Source: an uncultured Dokdonia sp.
GTDB lineage: Bacteria > Bacteroidota > Bacteroidia > Flavobacteriales > Flavobacteriaceae
Assembly (NCBI RefSeq): GCF_947492535.1
Contig: NZ_CANLNH010000009.1
Coordinates: 62,001 to 126,000 of the forward strand
Direction: 5' to 3'
DNA: 64,000 nucleotides
The position numbers and the translations under genes are program-made. The notes beneath the pieces were generated by a model. It ran no database searches. It had not been told where the DNA came from and saw only the letters and a program-made list of their open reading frames with translations. Positions 3,644 to 62,800 of this stretch are shown here, piece after piece. How positions within the stretch are numbered: position 1 is the stretch's first letter; the number at the start of each line of letters is the position of its first letter.

Positions 3644-3711
3644 ATTTTATTCAGAACATATATTTTCGCGAAAGCATAAAAACTAGACACTTTTCACTAA
3701 ATACTAAAACC

Positions 3712-4359
3712 CTAGTTTTCTTCGATTAATGCTTTATTGCGTGAACGTTGTACCCATATAATAAGTCCAACAACAATCAGTGCCATAGGTGATAATAACA
3801 TAAATCCATTATTCTCATATCCTGTAGCATATAATCCTGTTTTTTCTATTGGATCTCCTAATACTTTAAATCCAAGTAATGTACCTGAACCAAAAAGTTC
3901 TCTAAAGAATCCTACAATAATTAAGATCACTCCATACCCAAGTGCATTTCCTATTCCATCTAGGAAAGAACGCCATGGGCCATTTCCTAAAGCAAAGGCT
4001 TCAAAACGTCCCATAATAATACAGTTGGTAATAATAAGTCCTACGAATACTGAAAGCTCTTTACTTAAGGTATATGCATATGCTTTTAGTACTTGATCAA
4101 CAATAATTACAAGTGTTGCTACAACCACTAATTGTACAATAATTCTGATTTTTGAAGGAATGATGTTTCGCATAAGCGAGATCACTACATTTCCTATACC
4201 TAACACAAAAATTACAGATACTGCCATCACAATAGATGCCTTTAACTGTGCTGTAATTGCCAATGCAGAACAAATACCTAATACTTGTATTGTAATCGGG
4301 TTATCGTCTGCTAACGGATCAAGAATTAATTTTTGATCTTTTTTTGATAGTAATCCCAT
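3712..4359 (-). CDS. nqrD: Na+-NQR subunit D
   Basis: A six-helix membrane subunit of the sodium-pumping NADH:quinone reductase, 215 residues, the usual length. The conserved membrane stretch LIITNCIIMGRFEAFA holds the cysteine that, with its NqrE counterpart, is known to bind the intramembrane iron centre. It starts 4 bases from the end of nqrC, as in the standard operon. Downstream, instead of nqrE, comes a 68-base spacer and the four-helix-bundle gene. Confidence 0.96.
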   Translation of the reverse strand: MGLLSKKDQKLILDPLADDNPITIQVLGICSALAITAQLKASIVMAVSVIFVLGIGNVVISLMRNIIPSKIRIIVQLVVVATLVIIVDQVLKAYAYTLSKELSVFVGLIITNCIIMGRFEAFALGNGPWRSFLDGIGNALGYGVILIIVGFFRELFGSGTLLGFKVLGDPIEKTGLYATGYENNGFMLLSPMALIVVGLIIWVQRSRNKALIEEN

Positions 4360-4363
4360 AATA

Positions 4364-5101
4364 TTATTTCAAGTTTTGAATATGAGGAATATATGATTTT
4401 AATGTGCTCTTGAACATGGCAGTTACACCATCTCCTGTGATTGTTGCACCAGCTAAAGCATCAACTTCATTATCATCTTTAGTTTCATTTTTAGGATCAT
4501 TATTTCCTTTAGCAACTGTAATACCTGCATATTTGTTGCCGTTCATAATTTGTTCTCCTAAGAAATCATCCATAAAGTAACGCTCTTTGATATTGGCTCC
4601 TAATCCAGGTGTTTCTCCTTTATGATCAAAAATAGCACCTTGTACAATGAGTTTATCATCTAGGGCAACATATCCCCAGATAGCATCCCAAAGTCCTTTC
4701 CCGTACATAGGGATTACGTAAAACTTTTTACCGTCGCGTTCTCCTACAAACAATGGTAGTTTACGTTCACTCTTAGGCGTTTTACTTTGTTTCTTCATAT
4801 CTATTTTAAAAGCATCTTCTCCTTCAAGAACTTTTCCATTTTGAAAAACAAAACTTTCCTTGATGTAATTTGTATATGCTTCTTCTACTTTATCGGTAGC
4901 TATAAAATTTACAGAGCCTGTATCGTCTCCGTTTTCATGAACACCCATAGCGTATAGAATACTCTGTTGCTTTTCAAAACGTTCATTTTCTTTAATGGCA
5001 GGTTTAAGGCCTGTAGCAAGTGCTGCCAGAATACCTCCTACAACAAATACCATTACTGTTGCAAAACCTATTGTATATCCGTTTCCGTCTGTATTTGCCA
5101 T
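4364..5101 (-). CDS. nqrC: Na+-NQR subunit C, covalent FMN carrier
   Basis: NqrC passes electrons through a covalently bound FMN facing the periplasm. The 245-residue protein has one N-terminal membrane helix (about 10-32) and an FMN-binding domain. Near residue 215 the motif LAGATITG provides the threonine used for the phosphoester-linked FMN. The family's usual SGATxT has its first serine replaced by alanine here, but the acceptor threonine is present. It lies two bases from nqrB and four from nqrD. Confidence 0.95.
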   Translation of the reverse strand: MANTDGNGYTIGFATVMVFVVGGILAALATGLKPAIKENERFEKQQSILYAMGVHENGDDTGSVNFIATDKVEEAYTNYIKESFVFQNGKVLEGEDAFKIDMKKQSKTPKSERKLPLFVGERDGKKFYVIPMYGKGLWDAIWGYVALDDKLIVQGAIFDHKGETPGLGANIKERYFMDDFLGEQIMNGNKYAGITVAKGNNDPKNETKDDNEVDALAGATITGDGVTAMFKSTLKSYIPHIQNLK

Positions 5102-5103
5102 GA

Positions 5104-6321
5104 TTATGCTGTTTTAACTTTTAGACGTTTCATTCTTTTCTTCACATTCCCTTGAACCACATAATGGTCAATCGTAGGTGCAAACACATTCATTAATAGT
5201 ATAGCAAGGAATACTCCTTCTGGATATGCTGGATTAAATACACGAATCATAATAGCTATAAATCCAATAAAGAATCCATAAATCCATTTCCCTTTATTGG
5301 TTTGAGAAGCTGTTACAGGGTCTGTAGCCATATAGACTGCTCCAAATAAAATACTACCTATAATAAGGTGTTGCCAATAAGGAATACTCATTAATCCAAA
5401 GAATTTACTACTTTCATCTATCCAACCGGCTTCTACAACACCGTTAAATATAAGTCCCATAGCTACTGCTCCAACTACGGTACTAAGCATAATTCTCCAA
5501 CTTCCTATTTTAGAGAAAATCAAGAATAAAGCACCAATAATAATTAAAAACTTAGAAGTCTCTCCTACAGATCCTGGTATATATCCCCAGAACATATCAG
5601 CATAATCATATCCTAAACTACCTGCATTTTGAGCATAAGCACCTAAGAGTGTTTCACCAGATATCGCATCTGCAGTTCCTGCTCTATCAACAGCTTCTGC
5701 TACCCATACTTTATCGCCAGACATCCATGTTGGATATGCAAAGAATAAGAAAGCACGGATCGTAAGTGCAGGATTAAGAATATTCATTCCAGTTCCTCCA
5801 AATACTTCTTTTCCTATCACAACACCAAAAATCACTGCAACTGCAAGCATCCATAATGGAATATCAATTGGCACAATTAACGGCACTAACATTCCTGTTA
5901 CTAGGTATCCTTCTTCTACTTCATGGCCTTTGATCACTGCAAAAATAAATTCTACAAGAAGACCAACACCATAGGAAACAATAACAAGTGGGACTACTTT
6001 CCAAGCGCCTAAAGAAAAGTTTTCCCAAGTAATAAAGTTACCCCATATAGATAATTCTCTTGTAATCCCATTTGCAGCATCGACAGCTGCATAATGCTGA
6101 TATCCTGCATTAAAAATACCGAAGATTAAACATGGCACTAATGCCATAATCACGGTATTCATAGTACGTTTTAAGTCATCTACAGCTCTAATGTGCGAAC
6201 CACTATGAGTCGTCTCATTAGGACTATATAAAAAAGTATGAATTGCATTAAATGCGGGGGCCATTTTCTTGCCCTCATACTTCATTTTAATTTTATGTAA
6301 GTTTTGTTTTAATCCCATCAC
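5104..6321 (-). CDS. nqrB: Na+-NQR subunit B
   Basis: The largest membrane subunit of Na+-NQR, 405 residues with about ten hydrophobic segments. It carries a covalent FMN and is linked to quinone reduction and sodium transport. The region around ISGETLLG (about residue 225) corresponds to the family's SGAT-type FMN attachment site, with the acceptor threonine kept. Two adjacent ATG codons (6321 and 6318) are possible starts. The gene abuts the nqrA stop codon, implying translational coupling. Confidence 0.96.
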   Translation of the reverse strand: MMGLKQNLHKIKMKYEGKKMAPAFNAIHTFLYSPNETTHSGSHIRAVDDLKRTMNTVIMALVPCLIFGIFNAGYQHYAAVDAANGITRELSIWGNFITWENFSLGAWKVVPLVIVSYGVGLLVEFIFAVIKGHEVEEGYLVTGMLVPLIVPIDIPLWMLAVAVIFGVVIGKEVFGGTGMNILNPALTIRAFLFFAYPTWMSGDKVWVAEAVDRAGTADAISGETLLGAYAQNAGSLGYDYADMFWGYIPGSVGETSKFLIIIGALFLIFSKIGSWRIMLSTVVGAVAMGLIFNGVVEAGWIDESSKFFGLMSIPYWQHLIIGSILFGAVYMATDPVTASQTNKGKWIYGFFIGFIAIMIRVFNPAYPEGVFLAILLMNVFAPTIDHYVVQGNVKKRMKRLKVKTA

Positions 6322-7668: not shown

Positions 7669-7715
7669 ATGTCAGTAGATTTTTGTTATCTAAAACCTTA
7701 CTATTTTAAGGTGTG

Positions 7716-7723
7716 CAAATTTA
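7716..7723 (-). promoter_or_regulatory. candidate -7 promoter element of the nqr operon
   Basis: On the minus strand the bases read TAAATTTG, matching the Bacteroidota -7 consensus TAnnTTTG, 48 bases before the nqrA start. No convincing -33 TTTG was found at the expected distance. Confidence 0.45.
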
Positions 7724-7888
7724 CAAATTTCTATACGTTTTTTCCACTCGGAAAATAGGGATCATATTATTTATAACTATTCTAAATAACTAAATTTAAA
7801 CATCCTTAAACAAATCACAAACATAAAGCGAGTCTAAAGGCGTTTATTAGTAACAAATTAACGAATCATATTGGGTTTGTTTAAGAGT

Positions 7889-7906
7889 ACGCTTTCGCGA
7901 AAGCGT
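7889..7906. repeat. TTTCGCGAAA palindrome, intergenic copy
   Basis: A perfect 18-bp palindrome, ACGCTTTCGCGAAAGCGT, 37 bases upstream of the -7 element of the DUF5103 gene. It belongs to the repeat family found throughout the window. Confidence 0.95.
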
Positions 7907-7942
7907 ATAAAGAATCATCCATTTCTCGGTATAGATTTTGAT

Positions 7943-7950
7943 TATATTTG
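7943..7950 (+). promoter_or_regulatory. candidate -7 promoter element of the DUF5103 gene
   Basis: TATATTTG matches TAnnTTTG and lies 20 bases before the ATG at 7971, implying a short leader. Confidence 0.5.
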
Positions 7951-7970
7951 ACCAATAACTATCATTACTT

Positions 7971-9230: not shown

Positions 9231-9253
9231 CACAAAACTCCTATATTTATGGC

Positions 9254-12598: not shown

Positions 12599-12696
12599 TA
12601 CGCTTTAACGTTCCACTCTCCCTTTGGTCGTGAATCTCGCAGGCTCGATTTCGTACTTCGATGAACTCAGTATAAACTTCGCTTTCGCGAAAGCGT
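12599..12696. repeat. composite element carrying a TTTCGCGAAA palindrome (copy a)
   Basis: A 98-bp element bounded by TACGCTTTAACGTT on one side and the palindrome CGCTTTCGCGAAAGCG (12680-12695) on the other. Read on the minus strand, its far part shares TTCACGACCAAAGG and GTTAAAGCGTA with copies at 21335 and 53031. Its near part, CTCAGTATAAACTTC, is shared with the copy at 58022. It fills most of the gap before pruA. Confidence 0.8.
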
Positions 12697-18118: not shown

Positions 18119-20272
18119 TTGGTATTGTATTTGTGTACGCTTTCGCGAAAGCGTATAAAGAAACAATCATATCATTTTTCTAAATGTGTTAGTTTTCTTA
18201 TCATTACGTTATCTTTAACAACCATTCTATTGAATAAAATTACACTACTTGTTTTTAGTATTTGTATTCTTTTTAGCAAGTCGCTATTAAGCCAAGATTT
18301 CTGCAAACAATGGAAATTACTACAAGACGTAGTCGCCACAAATCACTATAGTCCAAAATCTATAGATGATGAAATGTCTGAAGCTGTTTTCGATCTCATG
18401 ATCAATGCAATTAATGACACAGGATTTCATTTTTTAAAATCTGATTTTGATGCCTTTGAAAAAGACAAAACACAATTAGATGACTATCTATCAAATAAAG
18501 ATTGTTCCTTTCTCACTACGTATGTAACTACTTTTGAAAAAAGAATTCAAGAGTCTAAGAATATCATTTCTGAACTTTCTTCGGCTACACTTTCTTACGA
18601 TGGAAAAGATACTTTACATTTTACACGAAATAATGGCGACCTTTTTTATAAAAATATAGAAAATAAAAAAAGATACTGGCGTAAATCTATAAAGTATAGA
18701 ACCATCACAAAATATATCAATGAAGCTCCTGAAGAAAAACATATAGAAAACGATTTTCTTGCTGTAGAAAAAACATACCGCACACACGTTATAGAAAATG
18801 CTTTATGTCAACTTGATGAAATACTCAGTGTTAAGAATGGAATACAGCGTCAATTTGAAAATATTGTATTAGATGCATTTGTAAAATATCAAGACCCTCA
18901 TTCTTCATTTTTAGACACGCAAGACAAAACAGCATATGAAGCACAACTTGCCACCTCACAAGTCGCTACAGGTGTGCAAACCTATAAAAACAATGAAGGT
19001 GCTATTGAAGTTTCTTATATAACACCTGGAAGTAACGCTTTTAAAAATAGAAATATTACTGAAGGTGATATCATTGTTTCTGTAACCATAAAAGATACAA
19101 CCATTGATTTATCGTGTTTTTCAAACGATGAATTACAAAGACAAATACAAGATACATTTGTAGAAGAAGTAACTTTTAACATCAGAAAAAATGACGGTGT
19201 ATTAAAACAAATAACACTTGTAAAATCTAAAATAGAAGTGGAGGAAAATAATCTCACAGGATTTGTTATTACTGGAGAGAAACGCATAGGTTTTATAAGC
19301 ATCCCATCTTTTTATACAGATTACGAATCTCCAAATGGATTAGGAATGGCAAATGATGTGGCTAGAGAGTTATATAAATTACAGAAAATGAATATCGATG
19401 CATTAATCATTGATGTACGTGACAATGGAGGTGGTTCTATGAAAGAAGCTATTGATCTTTCTGGGCTTTTTATTGACAGAGGTCCAGTTGCTATTTTAAA
19501 AGATCAAGCAGGAGAAACAGCCACGTTACGAGATTCTAACAGAGGTGTTGCTTTTACAAAACCCCTAGCAATACTTGTAAATGAATATAGTGCCTCTGCC
19601 TCTGAGTTCTTTTCGGCAGCAATGCAAGATTATAATAGAGCATTAATTATTGGAGCTACTACGTATGGAAAATCATCTGCACAAGTGATGATTCCATTAC
19701 AGGAAGATGATGAAAATAGTGATTTTACAAAACTTACTTCAGAAGTGTTTTATAGAGCTACAGGAAAGAGCCATCAGGCGCAAGGGGTGATTCCAGATAT
19801 TACATTGCCTTCTATTTATACAGATATTGCCAGTAGTGAAGCTTCAGAAAAATACCCGCTTCCAAATGATGATGTAATCGTAAAACTTAAAGCTAGGCCG
19901 TTACCCGTTATTGCAAAAGAAGTTCTCTCTAAAAATAGTAAGGCAAGAATTCAGGGTAACAGCACATTTTCCAGTATTACTGACAGTAATAAAAAACTAG
20001 TTGCTATGTTACAGGAAAACGATCATATTCCAGTATCGTTTTCAAAAGTAAAAGAATATCTTTCCTTTAGAGATGAATTATGGGATAGTTTTAGAGATGC
20101 CTCTAGTCAGGAAGATGCTATACTTACGATAGAAAATACAATAACAACAACCGAAATAAATGGATATGATGCTACTGCCAAAAAAGCCAATGAACAATTG
20201 CTTTCCAATATGAGTACAGATCCCTATATTATTGAAGCATCTAATATCTTAAAAGACTATCTGAAAAATTAA
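18119..20272 (+). CDS. S41-family C-terminal processing protease (Prc/Ctp-like), start uncertain
   Basis: An exported serine protease. A PDZ-like region lies at about residues 290-380. The S41 catalytic domain follows: GGGSMKEAIDLSG, the nucleophile Ser in YSASASEFF and the general-base Lys in TYGKSSAQ. A long N-terminal Prc-type helical region contains QDPHSSFLD, and a C-terminal extension follows. The start is unclear. From ATG 18119 the frame reads through a TTTCGCGAAA palindrome (18137-18154, coding LSRKR). A TTG at 18230 gives a cleaner signal peptide (LNKITLLVFSICILFSKSLLSQ region). The gene is 14 bases after the T9SS cargo gene and 11 before a secreted helical protein gene. Confidence 0.88.
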   Translation: MVLYLCTLSRKRIKKQSYHFSKCVSFLIITLSLTTILLNKITLLVFSICILFSKSLLSQDFCKQWKLLQDVVATNHYSPKSIDDEMSEAVFDLMINAINDTGFHFLKSDFDAFEKDKTQLDDYLSNKDCSFLTTYVTTFEKRIQESKNIISELSSATLSYDGKDTLHFTRNNGDLFYKNIENKKRYWRKSIKYRTITKYINEAPEEKHIENDFLAVEKTYRTHVIENALCQLDEILSVKNGIQRQFENIVLDAFVKYQDPHSSFLDTQDKTAYEAQLATSQVATGVQTYKNNEGAIEVSYITPGSNAFKNRNITEGDIIVSVTIKDTTIDLSCFSNDELQRQIQDTFVEEVTFNIRKNDGVLKQITLVKSKIEVEENNLTGFVITGEKRIGFISIPSFYTDYESPNGLGMANDVARELYKLQKMNIDALIIDVRDNGGGSMKEAIDLSGLFIDRGPVAILKDQAGETATLRDSNRGVAFTKPLAILVNEYSASASEFFSAAMQDYNRALIIGATTYGKSSAQVMIPLQEDDENSDFTKLTSEVFYRATGKSHQAQGVIPDITLPSIYTDIASSEASEKYPLPNDDVIVKLKARPLPVIAKEVLSKNSKARIQGNSTFSSITDSNKKLVAMLQENDHIPVSFSKVKEYLSFRDELWDSFRDASSQEDAILTIENTITTTEINGYDATAKKANEQLLSNMSTDPYIIEASNILKDYLKN
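18137..18154. repeat. TTTCGCGAAA palindrome at the 5' end of the S41 ORF
   Basis: A perfect 18-bp palindrome, ACGCTTTCGCGAAAGCGT, lying between the T9SS cargo gene and the likely true start of the protease. Confidence 0.95.
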
Positions 20273-21334: not shown

Positions 21335-21415
21335 TACGCTTTCGCGAAATTGAGCTAGCGAGACTTGTCCGCAGGCGGGTTCATGACCAAAGGAAGAGTA
21401 AAACGTTAAAGCGTA
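21335..21415. repeat. composite element with split TTTCGCGAAA palindrome (copy b)
   Basis: An 81-bp element that begins TACGCTTTCGCGAA and ends GTTAAAGCGTA, so its two ends are the two halves of the palindrome. The interior includes GTTCATGACCAAAGG, shared with copies a and c. It looks like a palindrome opened by an internal insertion, or the converse. Confidence 0.75.
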
Positions 21416-21437
21416 CAAAGAAGTAAAATATACAGGG

Positions 21438-24024: not shown

Positions 24025-26769
24025 TCAATCTGCAATATTGGGTGCTAACCATTTTTCTGCTTTTGCAAAAGCGATCTCTTTCCTATTTGCAAAATCTCGC
24101 ACCTGATCTTCTTTTATTTTACCTAATCCAAAATAACGTGCTTCTGGATGAGCAAAATAATACCCGCTTACACTAGCTGCTGGCCACATAGCCAAACTAT
24201 CTGTAAGCGTTACACCAATACTATCTTTTACTTGTAATAACTCCCAAATTGTTTCTTTTTCTAAATGATCTGGACACGCAGGATATCCTGGTGCTGGACG
24301 GATACCTCTATATTTTTCTTTAATCAATTCTTCATTTTTTAATACCTCATCAGTAGCATATCCCCAATATGTTGTTCGTACTTCTTTATGAAGGTATTCG
24401 GCAAAAGCTTCTGCCAGACGATCTGCTAACGCTTTAATCATAATCGCATTATAATCATCAAGTGCTTCTTCAAATTCGGCTGCTTTTTGAGCAGTCCCAA
24501 AGCCTGTTGTTACACAAAAAGCACCCATATAATCTTGTAATCCGCTTTCTTTGGGAGCAATAAAATCGGCGAGGGCTATATTCGGTTTTCCAGATGCTTT
24601 TTTAGATTGTTGACGGAGGGTTCTGAACCTCTTAACTTGCCCTTCGACAAGCTCATGGTGACAATTAGTAGCGTCATCTTGTATAGAGTTCTCGACTGCG
24701 CTCGAACCGACAAGAATATCATCATGATTAATGGTGTTTGCTTCAAAGAGACCAAAAGTAGCTTTGGCAGTGAGCCATTTTTCTTTAAAAATCTGCTGAA
24801 GCATCTCTTGGGCATCTGCAAAAAGCTCAGTTGCTTGTTTCCCCACAACTTCGTCTGTCAAGATATTTGGGTATCTCCCATGTAAATCCCAACTTCTAAA
24901 AAACGGACTCCAATCGATATAGTCTTCTAATTTTTGAAGATCAAAGTCTTCTATAACCTGAATCCCTAATTCTTTTGGCTTCATGATATCTTCAGCCTTC
25001 CAATCGATGGTATACTTATTAGCTCTTGCTTCTTCAATAGATAGGTATTCTTTTATACGTTGGCGTGAGTTAAAGCTTTCGCGAAAGCGTATATATTCTT
25101 CTTTCAACTCACTTTTAAAAGCTGTTTTGGTGTCCTTTTGCAATAAATCACCTACTACAGTCACTGCACGGGATGCGTCATTTACATGCACCACAGCATT
25201 TTTATACTCTGGATCTATCTTTACAGCCGTATGCGCTTTACTGGTTGTTGCACCTCCTATCAAAATAGGAATTTCAATATCCTGTCGTTGCAATTCTTTT
25301 GCGAGATAGACCATCTCATCTAGCGATGGAGTAATCAAGCCACTCAACCCTATGATATCTACATTATTTTCAATAGCTGAAGCAATAATTTTTTCTGGTG
25401 GCACCATGACACCTAAGTCTATAATTTCATAATTATTACAGGCTAAGACCACCGAAACAATATTTTTCCCAATGTCATGCACATCGCCTTTTACGGTAGC
25501 CATCAGGACTTTTCCTGCATTTTGGCTTTCTCCCGCGGTTCCGTTTTTAAGTTTTTCTTCTTCAATAAATGGTAAAAGATAAGCCACTGCTTTTTTCATC
25601 ACTCTGGCGCTTTTTACCACTTGAGGTAAAAACATTTTCCCACTTCCAAAAAGATCACCTACGACATTCATTCCTGTCATTAGATGCCCTTCAATAACAT
25701 GTATAGGTGCAGTAACAGATAGGCGTGCTTCTTCTACATCTTCTACTATATATTTGTCAATTCCTTTAACGAGAGCTCTGGTAATTCTACTTTGGATATC
25801 TCCTTCGCGCCAAGCTTCGGTTTCTTTTTCCGTAACTACTTTTTGTCCAACTGTTTCAGCAAAATCCAGTAAGCGTTCGGTAGCATCATCTCGTCTGTTA
25901 AGAATTACATCTTCTACATGTTCTAATAAGTCTTTTGGAATATCATCATAGACTTCGAGTAACGATGGATTTACAATTCCCATATTCATACCTGCTTCAA
26001 TAGCATGATATAAAAACACAGAATGCATGGCTTCACGTACAGTATTATTTCCGCGAAAGCTAAAAGACACATTACTCACTCCTCCACTCACACTACAATG
26101 CGGCAGATTATTTCGTACCCATCGCGTCCCTTCTATAAAATCAATAGCATTGCGTTTATGTTCATCCATTCCTGTAGCGACAGGAAATATGTTAAGATCA
26201 AAAATGATATCTTCTGGAGGAAAGTTTACTTCATTTACCAAAATATCATAGGATCGTTTTGCAATTTCTATACGTCTTTCATACGTATCTGCTTGTCCAA
26301 CTTCATCAAATGCCATCACAATCACAGCAGCTCCGTATCTTTTAATACGTTTTGCTTGTTGCTTGAATTGTTCTTCTCCTTCTTTAAGACTAATAGAGTT
26401 TACTACGCATTTTCCTTGTACTACTTGTAATCCTGCCTCAATAATGTCCCATTTGGAACTATCTATCATAATAGGGACACGTGCAATATCTGGCTCGGCA
26501 ATGACAAGGTTTAAAAAACGAACCATCGCTTCTTTCCCATCAATAAGCCCGTCGTCCATATTGATATCTATAATCTGCGCACCATTTTCTACTTGATCAC
26601 GTGCCACTGCCAAGGCTTCATCAAATTTTTCTTCTTTGACGAGACGTAAAAACTTTCTAGACCCAGCGACATTAGTACGCTCGCCTACGTTTATAAAATT
26701 ACTTTCTGGTGTAATAATTAAAGGTTCTAAACCAGAAAGTTTCAAATATCTTGGGGCTTCTTTTGTCAT
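24025..26769 (-). CDS. metH: cobalamin-dependent methionine synthase, folate/B12/activation half
   Basis: Transfers a methyl group from methyl-THF to homocysteine via cobalamin, together with the separate homocysteine-binding protein encoded just upstream. The 914 residues contain a pterin-binding domain ([14 protein letters not shown]), a B12 module with [10 protein letters not shown] (the His that ligates cobalt) and [11 protein letters not shown], and a C-terminal reactivation domain with [13 protein letters not shown] place the start at 26769 (MTKEAPRYL); longer versions would run into metH1. The ATG overlaps the metH1 TGA (ATGA). Around codon 710 the reading frame contains two dispersed repeats (24625-24712) coding SSAVEN and CHHELVEG. 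Confidence 0.95.
24625..24712. repeat. dispersed repeats inside the metH2 coding sequence
   Basis: Two unrelated repeats sit side by side. CCCTTCGACAAGCTCATGG (from 24640) is the well-known CHxELVEG-coding dispersed repeat. TTCTCGACTGCGCTCGAA (24689-24706) is part of a 25-base exact inverted copy of the metH2-metF intergenic repeat. The reading frame stays open, and the loop is about 15 residues longer than in typical MetH. Confidence 0.8.
25075..25088. repeat. TTTCGCGAAA palindrome inside metH2
   Basis: The 14-bp core GCTTTCGCGAAAGC lies in frame in metH2, read as FRESF on the minus strand. Confidence 0.93.
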
Positions 26770-32894: not shown

Positions 32895-33669
32895 ACCGTA
32901 ATTGCTTTTCTGTGTATTCATTTTCTTGAATAGCAGCGATTCTTTCAGACAGTACACTTCTATTTTCAACTACTTTTCCAATCACGATAATAGCAGGAGA
33001 TGTGAGCTTTTTTTCTGCTACTACTTTTTCGATAGTTTCGATGGTACCAAAGCCTGTTTTCTCATCCTCTCGTGTTCCGTTTTGGATGATGGCTACGGGT
33101 ATTTTTTCTTTACCCGCTTTCGCGAAAGCGGACACAATATCACCCAATTTACTCATCCCCATCAGGATGGCAACCGTTGCATTGGATTGTGCTGCTAGTG
33201 CTACATCTGTTGACATTTTATGAGATTTTGTCGTTCCAGTAATCACCCAAAAACTCTCTGCACTTCCGCGTTTCGTCAATGGAATTCCCTGATATGCAGG
33301 CACCGCTAATGCCGAAGAAATACCAGGCACCATCGCTGTTTCAATGGCATGTTCACGTACAATATCTAACTCCTCAGCGCCTCGTCCAAAGATAAAGGGA
33401 TCACCACCTTTTAAACGTACTACATGACCATGGCTAAAAGCACGACTTATAATCAAATCATTGATTTGCTCCTGCTGATAGGCATAACACCCTTTACGTT
33501 TGCCTACAAAAATCTTTTCGGCATTGGGAGCGTAATTTAGTAATACTGGATTTACCAATGCATCATAAAGAACCACATCTGCAGAAGCCAATGTTTTAAT
33601 AGCCTTGAGCGTAATTAAATCAGGATCACCTGGACCTGCACCCACTACAGTTAATTTTGCTTTTTTCAT
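32887..33669 (-). CDS. cobA: uroporphyrinogen-III C-methyltransferase
   Basis: Adds two methyl groups from SAM to uroporphyrinogen III, giving precorrin-2 for siroheme. The 260 residues show the start VVGAGPGDPDLITLKA, YDALVNP, RLKGGDPFIFGRGAEE and the GTREDEK C-terminal site. The central FAKAGKE is encoded by an 18-bp TTTCGCGAAA palindrome (33114-33131). It lies 6 bases after the sulfite reductase that uses the cofactor, and overlaps the next siroheme gene. Confidence 0.95.
   Translation of the reverse strand: MKKAKLTVVGAGPGDPDLITLKAIKTLASADVVLYDALVNPVLLNYAPNAEKIFVGKRKGCYAYQQEQINDLIISRAFSHGHVVRLKGGDPFIFGRGAEELDIVREHAIETAMVPGISSALAVPAYQGIPLTKRGSAESFWVITGTTKSHKMSTDVALAAQSNATVAILMGMSKLGDIVSAFAKAGKEKIPVAIIQNGTREDEKTGFGTIETIEKVVAEKKLTSPAIIVIGKVVENRSVLSERIAAIQENEYTEKQLRYA
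33114..33131. repeat. TTTCGCGAAA palindrome inside cobA
   Basis: A perfect 18-bp palindrome, CCGCTTTCGCGAAAGCGG, encoding AFAKAG in frame. Confidence 0.95.
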
Positions 33670-37173: not shown

Positions 37174-37225
37174 ATACGCTTTCGTACTTTAATTTTCTTG
37201 CTGTAAATTCCGCTTTCGCGAAAGC
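37174..37225. repeat. short composite element with TTTCGCGAAA palindrome between cysD and cysN (copy e)
   Basis: TACGCTTTCGTACTTT at 37174 and a perfect GCTTTCGCGAAAGC core at 37212-37225 bracket about 25 AT-rich bases. Both ends belong to the same repeat family. Confidence 0.8.
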
Positions 37226-39280: not shown

Positions 39281-40453
39281 CTATATATTAACTAGTGCAT
39301 TTTCAATGTCTTGTATAATATCCTGAATATGTTCTAGACCCACAGAAATACGAATTAATCCATCAGTGATTCCTACATTTTGACGTTCTTCCACACTTAA
39401 TTTTCCATGTGTTGTACTTGCAGGATGACTCACAATCGTTCGTGTATCTCCTAAATTTGCTGTTAATGAACACATCTCAATCGCATTTAAAAATGTGCGT
39501 CCACTTGCTAAGCCTCCTTCTACTTCTATTGTGACAATATTTCCTCCAAATTTCATTTGTTTTTGTGCGAGTTCATATTGCGGGTGCGATGGCAAAAAAG
39601 GATAACGTACTTGTGTTACTTTAGGATGTTTTTCTAATCGTTGTGCTAATTGTAATGCATTTTCACAATGCTTTTCTACCCTCACAGCTAGGGTCTCTAA
39701 ACTTTTAGACAGTGTCCAAGCATTAAAAGGAGATAATGCAGGTCCCGTAATACGTGCAAAACGATAAATCGTATCTATTAAATCTGCAGATCCTACCGAA
39801 ACTCCTCCCATCACACGCCCTTGGCCATCTAGTAATTTTGTTGCCGAATGTATCACCACATCTGCGCCCCATTTGATAGGTTGTTGCAAATACGGTGTTG
39901 CAAAACAATTATCTACTATAAAAATCAGGTTATGCTTTCGCGAAAGCGTACCCAACCATTCTAAATCTACGATATCAGTTGCAGGGTTTGTAGGAGATTC
40001 TACATACAAGATTTTTGTTCCAGGACGTATGAGAGATTCTATACTAGCTATATCCTGAACATCAAAATACGTATGTGATATATTCCATTTAGGGAAGTAC
40101 TTTGTAAATAAGGTATGTGTATTTCCAAAAATAGAACGTGCAGAAAGTACGTGATCACCGCTATCCAAAAGCGCTGCGAATGTGCTAAAAATAGCCGACA
40201 TTCCCGTTGCAAAAGCATGACCAGCTTCTGCTCCTTCCAGTAGACACATTTTCTGTACGAATTCGTGATTATTCGGATTTGTATATCGGCTGTAAATGTT
40301 ACGTTGTTTTTCTTCGGCAAACGAAGCTCTCATTTCTTCGGCATCATCAAATACAAAACTAGATGTCAAGTACATTGGCACCGAATGTTCTTGATGTTGT
40401 GTACGTTCTGATTGGGTACGTATCGCTTGTGTTTCTGGGTGTATATAACTCAT
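39281..40453 (-). CDS. metZ: O-succinylhomoserine sulfhydrylase-type trans-sulfuration enzyme
   Basis: A PLP enzyme of the Cys/Met metabolism family, 390 residues. The PLP lysine is in HSATKLLDGQGRVMGG, and the DGQGR context is typical of MetZ rather than cystathionine gamma-synthase. YSRYTNPN and SHPASTTHGKL also fit. It probably joins activated homoserine and sulfide to give homocysteine. It overlaps functionally with MetY in the same cluster. A palindrome (39934-39947) is embedded in its frame, coding LSRKH. It lies 16 bases after thrA. Confidence 0.88.
   Translation of the reverse strand: MSYIHPETQAIRTQSERTQHQEHSVPMYLTSSFVFDDAEEMRASFAEEKQRNIYSRYTNPNNHEFVQKMCLLEGAEAGHAFATGMSAIFSTFAALLDSGDHVLSARSIFGNTHTLFTKYFPKWNISHTYFDVQDIASIESLIRPGTKILYVESPTNPATDIVDLEWLGTLSRKHNLIFIVDNCFATPYLQQPIKWGADVVIHSATKLLDGQGRVMGGVSVGSADLIDTIYRFARITGPALSPFNAWTLSKSLETLAVRVEKHCENALQLAQRLEKHPKVTQVRYPFLPSHPQYELAQKQMKFGGNIVTIEVEGGLASGRTFLNAIEMCSLTANLGDTRTIVSHPASTTHGKLSVEERQNVGITDGLIRISVGLEHIQDIIQDIENALVNI
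39934..39947. repeat. TTTCGCGAAA palindrome inside metZ
   Basis: The 14-bp core GCTTTCGCGAAAGC lies in frame, coding LSRK on the minus strand, a different frame from the FAKA copies. Confidence 0.93.
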
Positions 40454-43928: not shown

Positions 43929-45221
43929 TTATACTAAGACTGTCTTATCTACTTTAGCAAAAGCAGCAATAAGATCTTCTTTTAAATCTTCTATATCTTC
44001 TAGCCCCACTGATAAACGAATCAAATCACTAGTTACTCCAGTGCTAGCTTGTTCATCTACACTCAATTGTTGATGTGTTGTACTAGCTGGATGAATGATG
44101 AGCGATTTACTATCTCCTATGTTAGCAAGTAATGAAAACAATTGTGTTTTATTAGCAATGGTTTTAGCACTTTCAAATCCTCCTTTTACACCAAAAGTGA
44201 CAATACCACTTTGTCCATTAGGGAGATATACATCTGCCAAATATTTATAAGCACTACTTTCTAATCCAGGATAATTCACCCATGCCACTTCATCTCGTGT
44301 TTGCAACCATTTAGCTAATGCCAATGCATTTTCAGAATGCTTTTTTACTCGAATCTCTAGAGTCTCTAATCCTTGTAAAATCTGAAACGCATTAAATGGA
44401 CTTAATGCAGCACCATGATCACGTAAACCTTCAATACGAGTTTTAGCAATAAATGCTGCGGGTCCTAAAACATCATGATACACTAGTCCATGATATCCTG
44501 CAGATGGTTCTGTAAATTCTGGAAATTTCCCATTACTCCAATCAAAATTTCCTGCATCTATAATAACTCCACCCAACGCTGTTCCATTACCATTTATATA
44601 TTTTGTAAGTGAATGAATCACAATGTTTGCGCCATATTCGATAGGATTTAATAATGCAGGAGTTGCTACCGTATTATCTACGATAAATGGTACTTTATAC
44701 GCTTTCGCGAAAGCGGAAATACCTTTTAAATCTAACACATCTAGTTTGGGATTCCCTAGGGATTCTACAAAGAAAGCTCTAGTGTTTTCTTGTGCTGCTT
44801 TTTCAAAATTTTCAGGATCTGAAGGATCTACAAATGTCGTTGTGATTCCAAATCGAGGAAGTGTTACATTTAATAAATTATAGGTCCCGCCATATAAACT
44901 GCTAGATGCAACGATATGATCGCCTTGCTTTAATAAGGTTAGTAACGTAGTATTGATAGCTGCTGTTCCTGATGCTGTGACTACTGCCGCAAGTCCTCCT
45001 TCAATTTCTGTGAGGCGTTTTTCAAGGATATCATTGGTAGGATTGTTAAGTCGCGTGTAAATAAATCCTGGTTCTGATAGATTGAACAAATTTGCTGCAT
45101 GATCTGCATCTTTAAAAACATAAGCTGTACTTTGATATATAGGTACTGCTCGGGTTCCTCCATTTGCTTCATAATCATGTCCTGCATGCAACGATTTTGT
45201 TGCTAATTTTTTTGTACTCAT
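43929..45221 (-). CDS. metY: O-acetylhomoserine sulfhydrylase (O-acetylhomoserine aminocarboxypropyltransferase)
   Basis: A PLP enzyme of 430 residues that makes homocysteine from O-acetylhomoserine and sulfide. It has AGHDYEANGGTRAVPIYQST at the start, FIYTRLNNPTND, the PLP lysine in HSLTKYINGNGTALGG and HPASTTHQQLS. The longer form and the N-terminus fit MetY. It is the first gene of the sulfur array, 147 bases after a SAM-I aptamer. A 16-bp palindrome (44700-44715) codes AFAKA in its frame. Confidence 0.93.
   Translation of the reverse strand: MSTKKLATKSLHAGHDYEANGGTRAVPIYQSTAYVFKDADHAANLFNLSEPGFIYTRLNNPTNDILEKRLTEIEGGLAAVVTASGTAAINTTLLTLLKQGDHIVASSSLYGGTYNLLNVTLPRFGITTTFVDPSDPENFEKAAQENTRAFFVESLGNPKLDVLDLKGISAFAKAYKVPFIVDNTVATPALLNPIEYGANIVIHSLTKYINGNGTALGGVIIDAGNFDWSNGKFPEFTEPSAGYHGLVYHDVLGPAAFIAKTRIEGLRDHGAALSPFNAFQILQGLETLEIRVKKHSENALALAKWLQTRDEVAWVNYPGLESSAYKYLADVYLPNGQSGIVTFGVKGGFESAKTIANKTQLFSLLANIGDSKSLIIHPASTTHQQLSVDEQASTGVTSDLIRLSVGLEDIEDLKEDLIAAFAKVDKTVLV
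44700..44715. repeat. TTTCGCGAAA palindrome inside metY
   Basis: The 16-bp CGCTTTCGCGAAAGCG, coding AFAKA in frame. Confidence 0.95.
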
Positions 45222-45294: not shown

Positions 45295-45310
45295 TCGCTT
45301 TCGCGAAATA
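45295..45310. repeat. degenerate TTTCGCGAAA repeat in the metY leader
   Basis: TTCGCTTTCGCGAAAT keeps one arm and the centre of the palindrome. On the minus strand it continues GCGAAATGTTAA, similar to the end of composite copy c at 53138. Confidence 0.7.
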
Positions 45311-55090: not shown

Positions 55091-55108
55091 ACGCTTTCGC
55101 GAAAGCGT
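55091..55108. repeat. TTTCGCGAAA palindrome, intergenic copy
   Basis: A perfect 18-bp ACGCTTTCGCGAAAGCGT, 23 bases past the 3' end of the convergent TMEM175-like gene. Confidence 0.95.
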
Positions 55109-56185: not shown

Positions 56186-56186
56186 T

Positions 56187-56633: not shown

Positions 56634-56639
56634 TTTAAA

Positions 56640-57179: not shown

Positions 57180-57209
57180 ATTGTAAAGAACTTCTTGCCG
57201 TTAATCACA

Positions 57210-57989: not shown

Positions 57990-58021
57990 AATGTAGTTTA
58001 ATTAAATGGTTAGTTTTCTAT

Positions 58022-58105
58022 ATACGCTCTTACTGTATACACCCGTACTTCGGCTTTGCTCAGTATAAACTTCTTCAAAGCTTTTATACGCTTTCGCGAA
58101 AGCAT
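58022..58105. repeat. composite repeat element (copy d) with TTTCGCGAAA palindrome
   Basis: Begins ATACGCTCTTACTG, contains GTACTTCGGCTTTG and CTCAGTATAAACTTC as in copy a, and ends with a perfect GCTTTCGCGAAAGC core (58090-58103). It lies just after the TonB-receptor gene on the minus strand. Confidence 0.75.
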
Positions 58106-58115
58106 AAAAAGCATA

Positions 58116-60884
58116 TTACAAATTATACTTTACTGTAAAGATAACATAACGCGGCTGAACGAAATATTCTGTGTTTGAAATCAAGATATCATTCACATTA
58201 TTATTACTAATAACATCTACATCTAATAAGTTAGTTGCTTGTACTCTAAACTCCCATTTACTTTCAGGTTTTTGGTAATACAAGTTGGCTTCTAAAAACT
58301 GATATGTATTACTTAAATCTGTACTGTCATCATTATCATCATAGTCATAATAACTCCAATCTGCAGCAAATGTAAATCCTTTTAAGAAGTTTACTTCCAT
58401 GTTTGCAAAAGGTCTATTGGTAATAAAAGTACGATCGGTAAATCCATTATCAGAGCGTGTACTTGTGTAGTTATACCCTACTTCAAAATTAGGCGCTTCT
58501 TTAAAATTGGTCTCCAAACTTGTTTGATAATTCTGTGTAAAATTCTTCGTGTTACGATCTTGACCATTAATTACATTGTTAAGATCGCTCCAAGAGACAT
58601 TTCCTCGTACATTCCACTTGAATTTTTTGAATGTTTTAGAGAAACGCGCATTCCCTCCATAGGTCTCATCTACAAAATTTGTATTGTTTATAGGCGATGA
58701 GATTTGATCAATTCCTTGAAATACGCCTGCCGTTTTTACAGGATCTATACGTCTGCTATAATTTACGCCTCCAAAAATACTTGTGAAATTAAACATACTA
58801 AAGCTGAAATAGTTTAAGTTCACATTATGGAAGAGTGCATTCTCTAAGTTGCGATTTCCTCTAAACAAACGGTTAAAATTATTAAACACAAGCCCCTCAG
58901 CATAATTACTCACATCTGTGTATTGAGCCGTTACTTGGTAGTTTAATTGCAATCTTTTACTCTGTGCAAATTGAGCTATGGCAAAGAAATCTGGCAATAC
59001 TAACCACTGATTATCTTCTGTAATACTTCCAGCTTGATCACTTTTAATCCCATATCTATGTAATGTAAGTCCTGGCGTAAAGGTGTAAATACCTGTTTTA
59101 AACTTATAGTGTGCTCCTAAAAACCAATCACTAAAATTAAATTGCACATCATTTCCTAGTGATGCAACCTCTCCTGTGTCAGGATCAGGTAGTGAATTAT
59201 CAAAATCTTCACGTCCATTACCTTCTAAAATCTGAAAAATATTAGAGTTAAAATCCTGTCTACTTAATGTACTTCCAAGTGTCAAGTTAATATTACTCTT
59301 ATTATTGATTACATAGTAGTAATCTACTTTTGCATCTAGTTTATTAGATCGTATCGTTTTATCTTGACTTACATTAAAAAGATCTTGTCCTTCTGTCGTT
59401 AATGGTAATACAGATTGAAAAGGTTGCTGACTTACCAATGCGTTATAAAAAGGGTCTTCCTCTTGAAAAAGGTGTTGCGCTGTAGCGGCAAAAATGTTGT
59501 TCTCATTTAGAGTATAATACACATTTAAATTCTGGTTCACAGAAAACGGGCTGTTTTCTTTACGTTGATCTACGTTGTCTATTTGCTCTACAAAGTTCCC
59601 ATCAGGATCTGTAAAACGTTCTATAGAAGTACCATCAGAAAACTCTGTTTGTTTAGATAATTTAGCTAATACATCATAATCTACCTGAAGATTTGTACTT
59701 GGTTTATGTACAGCGCTAAATTTTACCATTCCTAATTGATTACGCTGGTCACTTACTTCGTTAAATTCTTGAGACACCCCTCCGTTTATAAACGTATTTA
59801 ATGAGTTATTTATAAAATTAGTACGGCCATCATTCAAAATTGTAAATCCGCTAAGATCCCACGTTTTTGAAGGGCTATAGGTAAAGTTAGCTCCAATAAA
59901 ATCAGATTCTATCTCATTGGCTCTATTGTTTTGTGTTGTTAGGAAGCCTAATCCTCCATCAGAAATATTAAAAGAGGTTCCTCCTCGTCGATTAAAGCCT
60001 CTAAATCCTCCTGTAAAATTAAAGTAGTCTCTAAACGTGAAAGGGACTTCTCCCGTGTTATTAAAATTCCCAATGACATTAATACTCCCTTTGGGACTAT
60101 AGTAAAACAATTTAGGTTTTACAGTATATCTAAATTCATCACCACCTTCTCCGGCTCCTGTTGTAATATCACCAAACCAAAAATTCTTCTTTCCTTCTTT
60201 AAGTTTAAGGTTAATGGCTATATTATCTTGATCATTTCCTAAACCTCGCATTTGAGATACTTCATTATAATTTTTGAGAACTTCTACTTTTTTGAGGGCA
60301 TCTGCAGGAATATTCTGTGTCGCTAATTTACTATCGCCATCAAAAAAGTCTTTCCCTTCTATCATTACTTTAGAAACTTTTTGGCCATCTACCTCTATTT
60401 CCCCATCATCTGTCACCTCAACACCAGGAAGTTTCTTTAGTACATCCCCTAGCTTCTTTTCGTTTCCATTGGTAAAACTATCGGTATTATATACAATAGT
60501 ATCTCCTTTTACCGTTACAGGCATTTCATATACGAGTTCTACATTATCTAATTGATTAGGATCTGAAACTAAGGTAAAATCTTTTGTGTCATCTGCTCCA
60601 TTTTCTGGAACCGTATAATCTACAACTTCTGATTTTAATCCTAGAAAACTCACCTTAAGTTCGTAGGTCGTATTTACAGCTAATTCTAATTTATATCGAC
60701 CTTGAGCATCTGTTATTCCGTAAGATTCTAAGGTGCCTTCTGCTTTATTTGTAGCAATGATATTGGCTAGCTCTAAAGGGTTTCCTATACTGTCTTTTAC
60801 AGTACCTCTAAGTTCTATACTTTGGGCAAAGAGACTCAAGGGCATTGCAAAGAGCAACACCAACATACTAGTTTTTAAACGCAT
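58116..60884 (-). CDS. TonB-dependent outer-membrane beta-barrel receptor
   Basis: A roughly 920-residue outer-membrane transporter. I start it at 60884 (MRLKTSMLVLLF), giving a signal peptide ending PLSLFAQ. A carboxypeptidase-regulatory-like domain follows (IELRGTVKDSIGNPLELANI), then a plug (KKLGDVLKKLPGVEVTDDGE, KVMIEGKDFFDGD), then a long beta barrel ending YVIFTVKYNL. The type matches the outer membrane family often found with GLPGLI proteins. The substrate is unknown. It follows two GLPGLI genes in one unit. Confidence 0.9.
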   Translation of the reverse strand: MRLKTSMLVLLFAMPLSLFAQSIELRGTVKDSIGNPLELANIIATNKAEGTLESYGITDAQGRYKLELAVNTTYELKVSFLGLKSEVVDYTVPENGADDTKDFTLVSDPNQLDNVELVYEMPVTVKGDTIVYNTDSFTNGNEKKLGDVLKKLPGVEVTDDGEIEVDGQKVSKVMIEGKDFFDGDSKLATQNIPADALKKVEVLKNYNEVSQMRGLGNDQDNIAINLKLKEGKKNFWFGDITTGAGEGGDEFRYTVKPKLFYYSPKGSINVIGNFNNTGEVPFTFRDYFNFTGGFRGFNRRGGTSFNISDGGLGFLTTQNNRANEIESDFIGANFTYSPSKTWDLSGFTILNDGRTNFINNSLNTFINGGVSQEFNEVSDQRNQLGMVKFSAVHKPSTNLQVDYDVLAKLSKQTEFSDGTSIERFTDPDGNFVEQIDNVDQRKENSPFSVNQNLNVYYTLNENNIFAATAQHLFQEEDPFYNALVSQQPFQSVLPLTTEGQDLFNVSQDKTIRSNKLDAKVDYYYVINNKSNINLTLGSTLSRQDFNSNIFQILEGNGREDFDNSLPDPDTGEVASLGNDVQFNFSDWFLGAHYKFKTGIYTFTPGLTLHRYGIKSDQAGSITEDNQWLVLPDFFAIAQFAQSKRLQLNYQVTAQYTDVSNYAEGLVFNNFNRLFRGNRNLENALFHNVNLNYFSFSMFNFTSIFGGVNYSRRIDPVKTAGVFQGIDQISSPINNTNFVDETYGGNARFSKTFKKFKWNVRGNVSWSDLNNVINGQDRNTKNFTQNYQTSLETNFKEAPNFEVGYNYTSTRSDNGFTDRTFITNRPFANMEVNFLKGFTFAADWSYYDYDDNDDSTDLSNTYQFLEANLYYQKPESKWEFRVQATNLLDVDVISNNNVNDILISNTEYFVQPRYVIFTVKYNL

Positions 60885-60965
60885 TTTGATTGTGTGTATT
60901 GGTTCGTTATTCAAGAGTATATATTCTTGAATTTCTATTGTTTATATATGATGATTGTAGTATGA

Positions 60966-61859
60966 TTATCCGCCAAATCGACCGCCTCTTCTACCACCGC
61001 CTCCGCGACGGTTACCGCCTCCATAACGTTCAGACATCTCCTTTGCTTTTTCATCTACAATTTTTCGGTACTCTTCTCGTGTTACCTCTTTTCCTTTTTC
61101 AGGAACTTCAATCACAATTTCTTCTTTAGGGTTTAGTACTACCTTTGTACATAACATGGTGGTATTATTAGTACTTAGTTCTAAGATAAGTCCTGGAAGT
61201 CCTCCAAAATCGTCAGGTCCGTGGCTTGCAGGAATCATAGGTGTATACCATGCAACAATGGTTTCTGTTTTAGGTTCTGGTTTTTCAGCAACTTTATCTT
61301 CTGTACTTGCTGTCTTGAGCGTATCATCTTCCTTTTCTCTTGCCTTTTGAGCATTTCTTGCACGACGTCCCATTCTACTCCAAATGTTCTGCTCAATATC
61401 TCTTGTTGCTACCGCTTTAAAAACAGGATACTGTCCTATCATCTTACTCTCTTTTACGAGTTCCCATTCTAGATGATTAATCGTATCCTTGATTAAAAAG
61501 ACTTTCCCAAACATATTGTTTTCTCTTGCATACGCATTTTGATCTACATTTTTATAGATTCCTCCTTGCGTAAAACCGCCTCCAAAACGACCACCACCTT
61601 GTCCGGGTGTTGCTAGTTTTTCTTCTTCTTTGTAAAAAGATTCCGTATTGGTGAATGTAAGCGTAAACTCTTTTTCCAAAAAGTTTTTCATACGCTCCAT
61701 AATTTGCTTTTTACGTTGCTCAGACATTTGTTGCCCATCTCTTGTAAAACGTGACATATCTATTGTTGTCTTTGTTTGATACGTAGCAACTCCTTGTACA
61801 TTTTGAGCATACGTAGTAAGTGCAAACAAGCTTATAAATAGCATGATAACACTTCGCAT
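60966..61859 (-). CDS. GLPGLI-family protein (second copy)
   Basis: An exported protein of about 297 residues. The start at 61859 gives the signal peptide MRSVIMLFISLFALTTYAQ. The family hallmark is in DDFGGLPGLILELS (about residue 230), after TIVAWYTPMIPASHGP. The C-terminal end is a glycine-arginine-rich tail (GGGNRRGGGGRRGG). GLPGLI proteins commonly accompany TonB receptors in Bacteroidota; their role is unknown. It is paralogous to the next gene upstream. Confidence 0.9.
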   Translation of the reverse strand: MRSVIMLFISLFALTTYAQNVQGVATYQTKTTIDMSRFTRDGQQMSEQRKKQIMERMKNFLEKEFTLTFTNTESFYKEEEKLATPGQGGGRFGGGFTQGGIYKNVDQNAYARENNMFGKVFLIKDTINHLEWELVKESKMIGQYPVFKAVATRDIEQNIWSRMGRRARNAQKAREKEDDTLKTASTEDKVAEKPEPKTETIVAWYTPMIPASHGPDDFGGLPGLILELSTNNTTMLCTKVVLNPKEEIVIEVPEKGKEVTREEYRKIVDEKAKEMSERYGGGNRRGGGGRRGGRFGG

Positions 61860-61969
61860 ATTTTTGAGAACCATAGTGTAATTTGTTTAGTTCGTTAGAC
61901 TATAAAATTAAACCAAAGTTTAGGCGACTTCTTTTTTTTAAGAATACTTTATGATTTCAGCAAGGTTAC

Positions 61970-62800
61970 TTACCCTCCTATTTTGATAGAAAACGTATTT
62001 CCATTTTCTTTTTTACGTCCTCCCCCATCATAGCGTTCCATCATTTCTTTTGCTTTTTCTTCAGAAATTTCTTGATATTCTGCCTCACTCACCTTCTTTC
62101 CTTTTGTAGGAATCTCCAGTGTAACCCCATCTTTAGGATTAATAACAACTTGAGTACACATCATGGCCATCTTACCATCGCTCACTTCAAGTATAAGACC
62201 TGGCAATCCCCAAAAATCATCTGGACCATGTTGCACTGGGATATCAAGTGTATACCACGCTGTGGTTACTTTTTCTACCTTTTTTACTTCTTCTTCTCCT
62301 TCTCCATTTATTTTATGAAAAGATCGCTGTTCTACTTCTTTAGTCCAGGTAGCTTTAAAACACGTGTACTGTCCTATATTTTTTGTTTCTTTTTCAAGTT
62401 TCCACTCAGGTTTTTCAAGTTTATCTTCTATAAGAAACTGTTTCCCCATCAAATCACTTTGTTGCGTATACGTTTGATCTTTGATATTTTGATATAAAAC
62501 ATCACTATTCCCACTTAGTACGATACTAATTCCTCCACTTGGTGGAGCTTGTGGTTTATCAAGGGTTGCTTCTTCTTTCCAGGTAGCTGCTGCTTCATTA
62601 AAAGACAAGGTATATTCTTTCTGAAACTGCTTGCGTAATTGCTCTTGGATTGACTTCTGCATTTCATCATTCATCCCAGAAGTGCTGTCCATTTTAATAT
62701 CAACATGACGTTGGGTTTGATAGGTGGCTACTCCTTGAATGCTTTGTGAGTTCGCTTTCGCGAAAGCGAATACTAAAATAAATAAGATGATATTTTTCAT
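61970..62800 (-). CDS. GLPGLI-family protein (first copy)
   Basis: A 276-residue exported protein with signal FAFAKANSQ, whose AFAKA is coded by a 20-bp TTTCGCGAAA palindrome (62751-62770). It has DDFWGLPGLILEVSDG and TAWYTLDIPVQHGP, plus VQGVATYQT-type start sequence shared with the neighbour, showing a tandem duplication. The tail lacks the Gly-Arg repeats of the second copy. It is 24 bases after the small helical protein gene. Confidence 0.9.
   Translation of the reverse strand: MKNIILFILVFAFAKANSQSIQGVATYQTQRHVDIKMDSTSGMNDEMQKSIQEQLRKQFQKEYTLSFNEAAATWKEEATLDKPQAPPSGGISIVLSGNSDVLYQNIKDQTYTQQSDLMGKQFLIEDKLEKPEWKLEKETKNIGQYTCFKATWTKEVEQRSFHKINGEGEEEVKKVEKVTTAWYTLDIPVQHGPDDFWGLPGLILEVSDGKMAMMCTQVVINPKDGVTLEIPTKGKKVSEAEYQEISEEKAKEMMERYDGGGRKKENGNTFSIKIGG
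62751..62770. repeat. TTTCGCGAAA palindrome inside a GLPGLI signal peptide
   Basis: A perfect 20-bp palindrome, TTCGCTTTCGCGAAAGCGAA, coding FAFAKA in the signal peptide, the longest copy in the window. Confidence 0.95.

Follow-up and report, generated by a model that had tools for sequence, protein, structure and literature searches.

The closest described relatives of the element treated here are DNA words that recur throughout bacterial chromosomes. In excerpts of four articles on uptake signal sequences (USS), DNA uptake sequences (DUS), and Riemerella (PMC1939737, PMC7811141, PMC7965970, PMC8459023), the USS of Haemophilus influenzae is described as having 1,471 perfect copies against just 764 with a single mismatch, with 65% lying in open reading frames (ORFs), and is called significantly evenly spaced; uptake sequences are scarcer in newly acquired segments, and modeling found drive to suffice. 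These excerpts also report transformation in Riemerella, which belongs to the same wider group as Dokdonia, and a preference of Riemerella columbina for its own DNA, such preference being reported for Riemerella without a known sequence. For cyanobacteria, PMC4390886 links the highly iterated palindrome HIP1 and alternate HIPs to methyltransferases. Here, we analyzed a 14-bp palindrome, GCTTTCGCGAAAGC, that is iterated in a 64,000-nucleotide stretch of an uncultured Dokdonia sp. (positions 62,001 to 126,000 of contig NZ_CANLNH010000009.1, assembly GCF_947492535.1), hereafter called the window. Our results support the conclusion that the element is a genome-wide signal in the DNA, which selection or biased replacement maintains by acting directly on the sequence; the secure part of this conclusion is that the sites are maintained as DNA.

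The window holds 11 perfect copies, as the original prediction had stated, three of its start positions being off by one (correctly 7891, 18139, and 55093); the five degenerate copies that it named also exist, with corrected starts at 3662, 21338, 26047, 27445, and 45297, and a further form with two mismatches, GCTTTTGCAAAAGC, lies at 24059. With up to three mismatches allowed, 22 matches were found against 1.36 expected, a number that none of 100 shuffles reached. The proposed iteration is not local to the window: hundreds of copies, far above chance, were present in its genome (G000; 827 copies in 4,863,283 bases) and in relatives. The reversed GCTTTCGCGAAAGC, which served as the control, was absent from G000 and from all 249 Flavobacteriaceae genomes counted, G000 included. 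Five of these 249 genomes carried 408 to 857 copies, 48 carried 1 to 17, and 196 had none; the five comprise two of the window's genus, two of Nonlabens (genus g11), and one of another genus (g191, 408 copies), the highest count being that of Dokdonia sinensis (G206, 857 copies). Among 31 named genomes, each picked for having at least one hit, 288 to 905 copies were counted in 22, namely, ten labeled Dokdonia, ten labeled Nonlabens, strain BBFL7, and the metagenome-assembled genome (MAG) SAT149; the remainder were MAG SAT51, with 89 copies, and eight genomes with 1 to 10. Copy number did not simply track the size of the genome (903 copies at 5.5 Mb, 905 at 3.3 Mb, and 570 at 4.3 Mb). In samples of 40 kb apiece from ten other genera, no 12-bp palindrome occurred more than twice. 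We found no paper on the motif in these bacteria in the Creative Commons-licensed literature of PubMed Central, a scope outside which most subscription papers and preprints fall.

Two of the MAGs are labeled Cytophagaceae: SAT149 (PAUP01; 369 copies) appears to be a Dokdonia, and SAT51 (PALD01; 5.0 Mb) is perhaps a mixed bin. Neither of two proteins gave a usable ranking of the carriers, since the two Nonlabens genomes of the sample had no full match to MetH, and elongation factor G (EF-G) of the window's genome was nearer to other genera than to D. sinensis. This EF-G (G000 contig C1, 338450 to 339997; L154) is 93 to 95% identical to those of other genera and 90% identical to that of D. sinensis, of its own genus, and judging from these identities it may have been acquired by transfer.

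The element is long and strict. In Dokdonia it reads TAC-GCTTTCGCGAAAGC-GTA, followed on each side by about 18 bp that are nearly without G when read outward; the outward letters after each end are GTA in Dokdonia and G, a purine, A, and A in Nonlabens. Because G is nearly excluded to about +18 on each side (7 to 8% over +2 to +18 in G000, the Dokdonia genome G280, and the Nonlabens genome G242), the footprint of the element is about 50 bp in both genera, so that an earlier remark on extended flanks was right but understated. Over the same positions, G made up 17% in G190, a genome of higher G+C content, and 22% next to 25 stray copies from other genomes, most of which are richer in G+C. Perfect, singly mismatched, and doubly mismatched copies numbered 95, 13, and 23 in 551 kb of G000; 129, 6, and 18 in 400 kb of G280; 44, 5, and 1 in 200 kb of G242; and 24, 9, and 11 in 200 kb of G190, compared with 0, 0, and 3 in 400 kb taken from ten other genera. 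In four carriers together, the core TTTCGCGAAA was flanked by GC on one or both sides 344 times out of 346 (123/125 in G000, then 141/141, 48/48, and 32/32). Inner words seldom recur apart from the element: of 124 occurrences of TCGCGA in 464 kb of the window's genome, 106 lay in TTTCGCGAAA, and of 100 occurrences of the half-site GCGAAAGC, 79 lay in perfect copies. The idea of a triplet periodicity of flank letters, as for a RecA- or DnaA-like protein, was dropped because Dokdonia has A at +7, +10, +13, and +16 but Nonlabens peaks at +4, +10, and +12 to +14.

Copies are dispersed over coding and intergenic DNA and avoid one another. Crude ORF calls placed 88% of 464 kb of G000 in ORFs but only 44 of its 79 copies, the other 35 being intergenic, so that intergenic DNA is favored. 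All three reading frames were used by the coding copies (21, 13, and 10, mostly as AFAKA, LSRK, or FRES), as expected from the original prediction that the copies are conserved as DNA and not for protein; the counts, strictness, spacing, and conservation of individual sites bear out the same claim. The overall density is one site per approximately 3 to 6 kb. On contig C1 of G000 (592 kb), 1 of 98 gaps was shorter than 1 kb versus 15 expected, and the coefficient of variation of the gaps was 0.71 versus 0.985 at random (0 of 5,000 simulations as low). Such short gaps were likewise depleted in G280 (6/109 versus 32.0 expected; minimum of 18 in 2,000 simulations) and in Nonlabens (0/43 versus 8.7 expected). 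On the complete chromosome of G280, 20 segments of 20 kb, sampled at even intervals, held 3 to 9 sites each (variance/mean, 0.30), with no visible trend in site density between origin and terminus. In G190 the flank rule was weak, mismatched forms were commoner, and only 5 of 24 sampled sites were intergenic (14% of its DNA being intergenic), suggesting that the motif there may be younger, decaying, or read less strictly.

Individual sites are kept between species. We compared 27 sites in 151 kb of G000 with four relatives, using 14-mers 60 to 120 bp away as controls. In G281, 21 of the sites had alignable flanks and 18 of these were intact, versus 19 of 123 controls; the three misses were an artifact of gap placement at 37212, the copy at 12681, which is split by an inserted repeat, and one changed end letter. 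Intact sites numbered 6 of 6 in G292 (controls, 2/36; 21 sites not aligned), 8 of 13 in G295 (controls, 2/74; 14 not aligned; one artifact, again at 37212), and 4 of 7 in D. sinensis (controls, 0/41; 20 not aligned). Among 192 observations over all ordered genome pairs, not independent of one another, the 10-bp core was kept in 156. Losses were tied weakly at most to a close neighboring site (median distance, 2,468 versus 2,816 bp; 267 of 5,000 label shuffles as low).

Sites of the window and their state in four relatives (G206 is D. sinensis)
Position	Feature	Strand	State in relatives
3662..3675	core TTTCGCGAAA, GC on one side only	.	
7891..7904	perfect palindrome, intergenic	.	intact in G281, G295, G292
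12681..12694	perfect palindrome, intergenic	.	intact in G292
18139..18152	perfect palindrome, just 3' of TTG opening the ORF of a C-terminal-processing-peptidase-like protein	.	
21338..21416	palindrome interrupted by ~60-bp repeat	+	same repeat interrupts copies elsewhere in the genome
24059..24072	lost site GCTTTTGCAAAAGC within metH	.	perfect at same place in G281, G295, G292, G206
25075..25088	perfect palindrome within metH	.	intact in G281, G295, G292, G206
33116..33129	perfect palindrome within cobA	.	intact in G281, G295, G292
37177..37211	extra half-site CGCTTTCG and spacer preceding the 37212 copy	+	absent from G281, G295
37212..37225	perfect palindrome, intergenic	.	intact in G281, G295
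39934..39947	perfect palindrome within O-succinylhomoserine sulfhydrylase-like gene	.	intact in G281, G292
44701..44714	perfect palindrome within O-acetylhomoserine sulfhydrylase gene	.	intact in G281, G292, G206; lost in G295
45297..45310	core TTTCGCGAAA, GC on one side only	.	same form in G281
55093..55106	perfect palindrome, intergenic	.	intact in G281
58090..58103	perfect palindrome, intergenic	.	intact in G281
62754..62767	perfect palindrome near start of GLPGLI gene	.	intact in G281, G206

The gene contexts first given for the coding copies hold (MetH, CobA, two sulfhydrylase-type genes, and a GLPGLI protein), the O-succinylhomoserine sulfhydrylase-like product scoring just below its family cutoff. 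The copy at 18139, for which the cross-species comparison offered no alignable relative, probably lies upstream of the true start of the peptidase-like gene. At 7891, constrained flanks extend about 18 bp beyond either end; at 39934, one outer end is altered in G295 and D. sinensis; and at 12681, the window has the intact site, while the copy split by the short repeat in G281 retains its core. The lost site at 24059 changed symmetrically, from C to T on both strands, so that GCTTTTGCAAAAGC is still a palindrome. Short repeats of two types (approximately 27 to 85 bp) split the palindrome or lie directly beside it at a fixed position, as might be expected of small mobile elements targeting it; they occur in the window (21338 to 21416 and 37177 to 37225), on C1 of G000 (near 158496, 199346, and 389472), in L461 (near 2944), and in the stretches of G281. 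The palindrome itself was rejected as a mobile repeat of the repetitive extragenic palindrome or miniature inverted-repeat transposable element type, as 44 of 79 copies lie in ORFs and positions are kept between species. It was also rejected as an intrinsic terminator, given the same coding share and an outward flank rich in A, C, and T, with A preferred at +3, +7, and +10 and no run of T.

Taken together, the regular spacing, strictness, scattered placement, genus-specific flanks, and stable positions of the sites are most like the behavior of an uptake sequence, and we tentatively favor the possibility that the element serves for DNA uptake or self-recognition. In this model, the transformation machinery would have a receptor that prefers DNA with the element, and the imported DNA would replace the homologous stretch, so that alleles with a perfect site would spread; sites would thus build up to roughly one per uptake fragment, keep apart from one another, and be restored after mutation. 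Because such a signal is a palindrome, either strand would present the same word. Receptor binding, biased uptake, and replacement are all steps that we infer. As expected of an uptake sequence, the element is over-represented and strict, with few singly mismatched forms (the 827 copies and the ratios in G280 and G000), evenly spaced, and found in genes in all frames and preferably between them, this preference being weak in G190; the long, weaker flanks with genus-specific letters are a further point in favor. DNA of G000 without a counterpart in G281 showed, on the whole, a weak deficit of sites (0.046 versus 0.208 sites per kb in one part and 0.166 versus 0.206 in another).

The machinery was surveyed by family searches in 24 genomes of the motif-bearing group, chosen by genus or earlier counts, and in 36 others, mostly single-contig assemblies with counts of 0 to 9. 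For 14 of the 24, whole-genome counts exist (G000, G206, G010, G242, G190, G249, G250, G252, G256, G259, G263, G266, G274, and G277, of which G274 is probably the incomplete MAG SAT149); for four, the motif was seen in stretches (G280, G281, G292, and G295); and for six Dokdonia genomes, it was assumed from the genus (G282, G283, G285, G286, G288, and G294). ComEC was found in 24 and DprA in 23 of the 24, which counts for uptake as a necessary condition only. Among the others, one single-contig Flavobacteriaceae genome (G142) had no match to either protein.

Several observations weigh against an uptake sequence. Motif-free genera have ComEC and DprA just as often (35 of 36 genomes for either protein), which leaves nothing specific to uptake that tracks the motif. 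The pilus ATPase (PF00437) was above its cutoff in 7 of the 24 and 9 of the 36 genomes, which rejects a link between it and the motif, and it is missing from G280, the densest genome sampled. The strictness exceeds that of the USS (6 singly mismatched versus 129 perfect copies in G280), and known uptake sequences, as the excerpts cited above describe them, are not palindromes. The longest site-free stretch examined, 25.6 kb of C1 with three half-altered cores, carries arginine-synthesis genes and is not obvious foreign DNA. Viral DNA gave a mixed picture. Two Nonlabens phages had no site, not even the 10-bp core, in 71 kb, but the phage-like contig L484 (IMGVR_UViG_2617271332_000001), which carries a prohead-protease-like S49 peptidase gene, has three perfect copies in 23 kb (at 2526, 5630, and 9271) at host-like spacing, so that avoidance of the motif is not universal among phages of such hosts. 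One of these three has host-like flanks, defined as at most four G among 34 letters (a rule obeyed by 60 of 68 sites in Dokdonia), as do 29 of 132 sites in viral contigs, among the matches listed.

The main rival to uptake, on present evidence unlikely but close to it, is that a dedicated chromosome-organizing protein, such as a nucleoid-associated protein, a bridging factor, or a loader of structural maintenance of chromosomes (SMC) complexes, binds the element: a dimer would read the palindrome, extended contacts would read the flanks, and selection would keep each site because one is needed every few kilobases. The palindromic core and the footprint of about 50 bp suit a dimeric or tetrameric binder, the coverage of the G280 chromosome fits an organizer, and strictness and site conservation suit purifying selection. 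One of the excerpts on uptake sequences describes these as less even than a compaction signal should be, and it is the strong evenness seen here that keeps this rival close. However, no reader protein was identified among the families searched (PF00145, ParB_N, PF04257, PF00437, ComEC, and DprA), and hundreds of redundant sites would each have to matter; losses are tied at most weakly to neighbors. An ordinary ParB of about 300 amino acids was found in all 60 genomes, with no additional family member peculiar to the motif-bearing ones, which rejects an extra ParB or Noc as the reader; in the one Dokdonia ParB compared (G280), the recognition region differs by one residue from those of two other genera. 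Scattered genomes within and beyond the motif-bearing groups, namely, G281, G292, G263, and G274 and members of several other genera, have a second ParB_N protein, which is about 600 amino acids long (shorter in G274).

The density of one site per 3 to 6 kb is also similar to that of Chi in Escherichia coli. We consider it improbable, however, that the element is a bidirectional, Chi-like signal for recombination or repair that stops or redirects an end-processing nuclease arriving from either side. Phage-like contigs with copies would be protected by such a signal, but Chi is short and directional, and the half-site hardly occurs outside the palindrome (21 of 100 outside perfect copies). RecC (PF04257) was absent from all 60 genomes, with an E. 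coli control positive and AddAB not searched, which rules out a Chi of the RecBCD type.

More doubtful still is a hairpin signal read in single-stranded DNA or in RNA. The half-site GCGAAAGC is an extra-stable DNA mini-hairpin and, as RNA, a GNRA-type hairpin, and the core stem stayed paired more often with its real flanks than with random outer ones (DNA, 0.71 versus 0.59; RNA, 0.55 versus 0.45; n = 224). Reversing the strand asymmetry of the outer flanks changed little (DNA, 0.64; RNA, 0.49), so pairing does not explain the G-poor flanks. In genes, moreover, both flanks show the asymmetry whichever strand codes, and excess pairing of the flanks was confined to positions 2, 3, and 13, the first two being those of the TAC/GTA extension, an otherwise general absence of covariation on which an RNA stem was rejected. 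A preferred cleavage site of a type II topoisomerase is very improbable as well: the symmetric core, wide flanks, and even spacing would be compatible with one, by inference only, but known gyrase preferences are degenerate and nearly all 14 letters of GCTTTCGCGAAAGC are fixed. Least probable of all is a HIP1-like by-product or target of a DNA methyltransferase, proposed earlier and suggested by a highly iterated palindrome containing TCGCGA, since the C5-methyltransferase family (PF00145), to which this rejection is limited, is absent from 13 of the 24 motif-bearing-group genomes, the window's own included, and from 7 of the 14 with genome-wide counts, inner words are hardly iterated outside the element, and 14 strict positions with flanks constrained to about 50 bp exceed the length of a HIP word.

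Stray copies in other genera tend to cluster, and they may mark DNA that left the carrier genera. A pair exactly 933 bp apart recurs in five Flavobacteriaceae genomes of other genera (G101, G078, G215, G087, and G269), lying in one of them within an outer-membrane efflux (OEP) gene (L070, Aquimarina, 157 to 1103), which suggests a transferred segment. A different repeat, CTTTCAATTCCG, with about 20 copies in 40 kb of L429 and L430 (G113), is probably a clustered regularly interspaced short palindromic repeat (CRISPR) array.

That each genome preserves hundreds of individual 14-bp sites implies strong selection or drive at the level of the DNA. Our combined results make it probable that the element is a new DNA code written across the chromosomes of Dokdonia, Nonlabens, and one or more further genera, with a dedicated reader protein and a palindromic footprint of about 50 bp, and that it is either an uptake signal, the first to be palindromic and pilus independent and the first in Bacteroidota, or a new organizing system. 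If uptake is correct, a palindromic uptake signal in Bacteroidota would be new and would show how some flavobacteria could distinguish self DNA from foreign DNA; if the element is architectural, it would represent a new way to organize a bacterial chromosome. The carriers are marine bacteria with cultured members, and a single bait sequence may suffice to fish for the reader under either explanation.

Among known systems, Chi resembles the element in occurring about once per few kilobases of self DNA but is short and directional, whereas the element is palindromic, long, and confined to a few genera, and RecC is absent. The Noc sites, parS, and matS are likewise palindromic sites of a chromosome-wide protein; they are, however, far fewer and regionally biased, while GCTTTCGCGAAAGC is uniform in G280 and accompanied by no extra ParB member. 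HIP1 and the alternate HIPs of cyanobacteria share with it the form of a highly iterated palindrome across coding and noncoding DNA, but HIP1 has 8 bp and goes with methyltransferases, whereas the present element has 14 bp plus flanks and is tracked by no C5-methyltransferase. Closest are the USS of Pasteurellaceae and the DUS of Neisseriaceae, which have at least hundreds of copies, a strict consensus, few forms with one mismatch, even spacing, a presence in genes with a preference for the DNA between them, weaker long flanks, and lineage dialects. These are words of 9 to 12 bp and not palindromes, whereas the element described here, a putative uptake signal, is a 14-bp palindrome with symmetric flanks, found in Bacteroidota and not linked to pilus ATPases.

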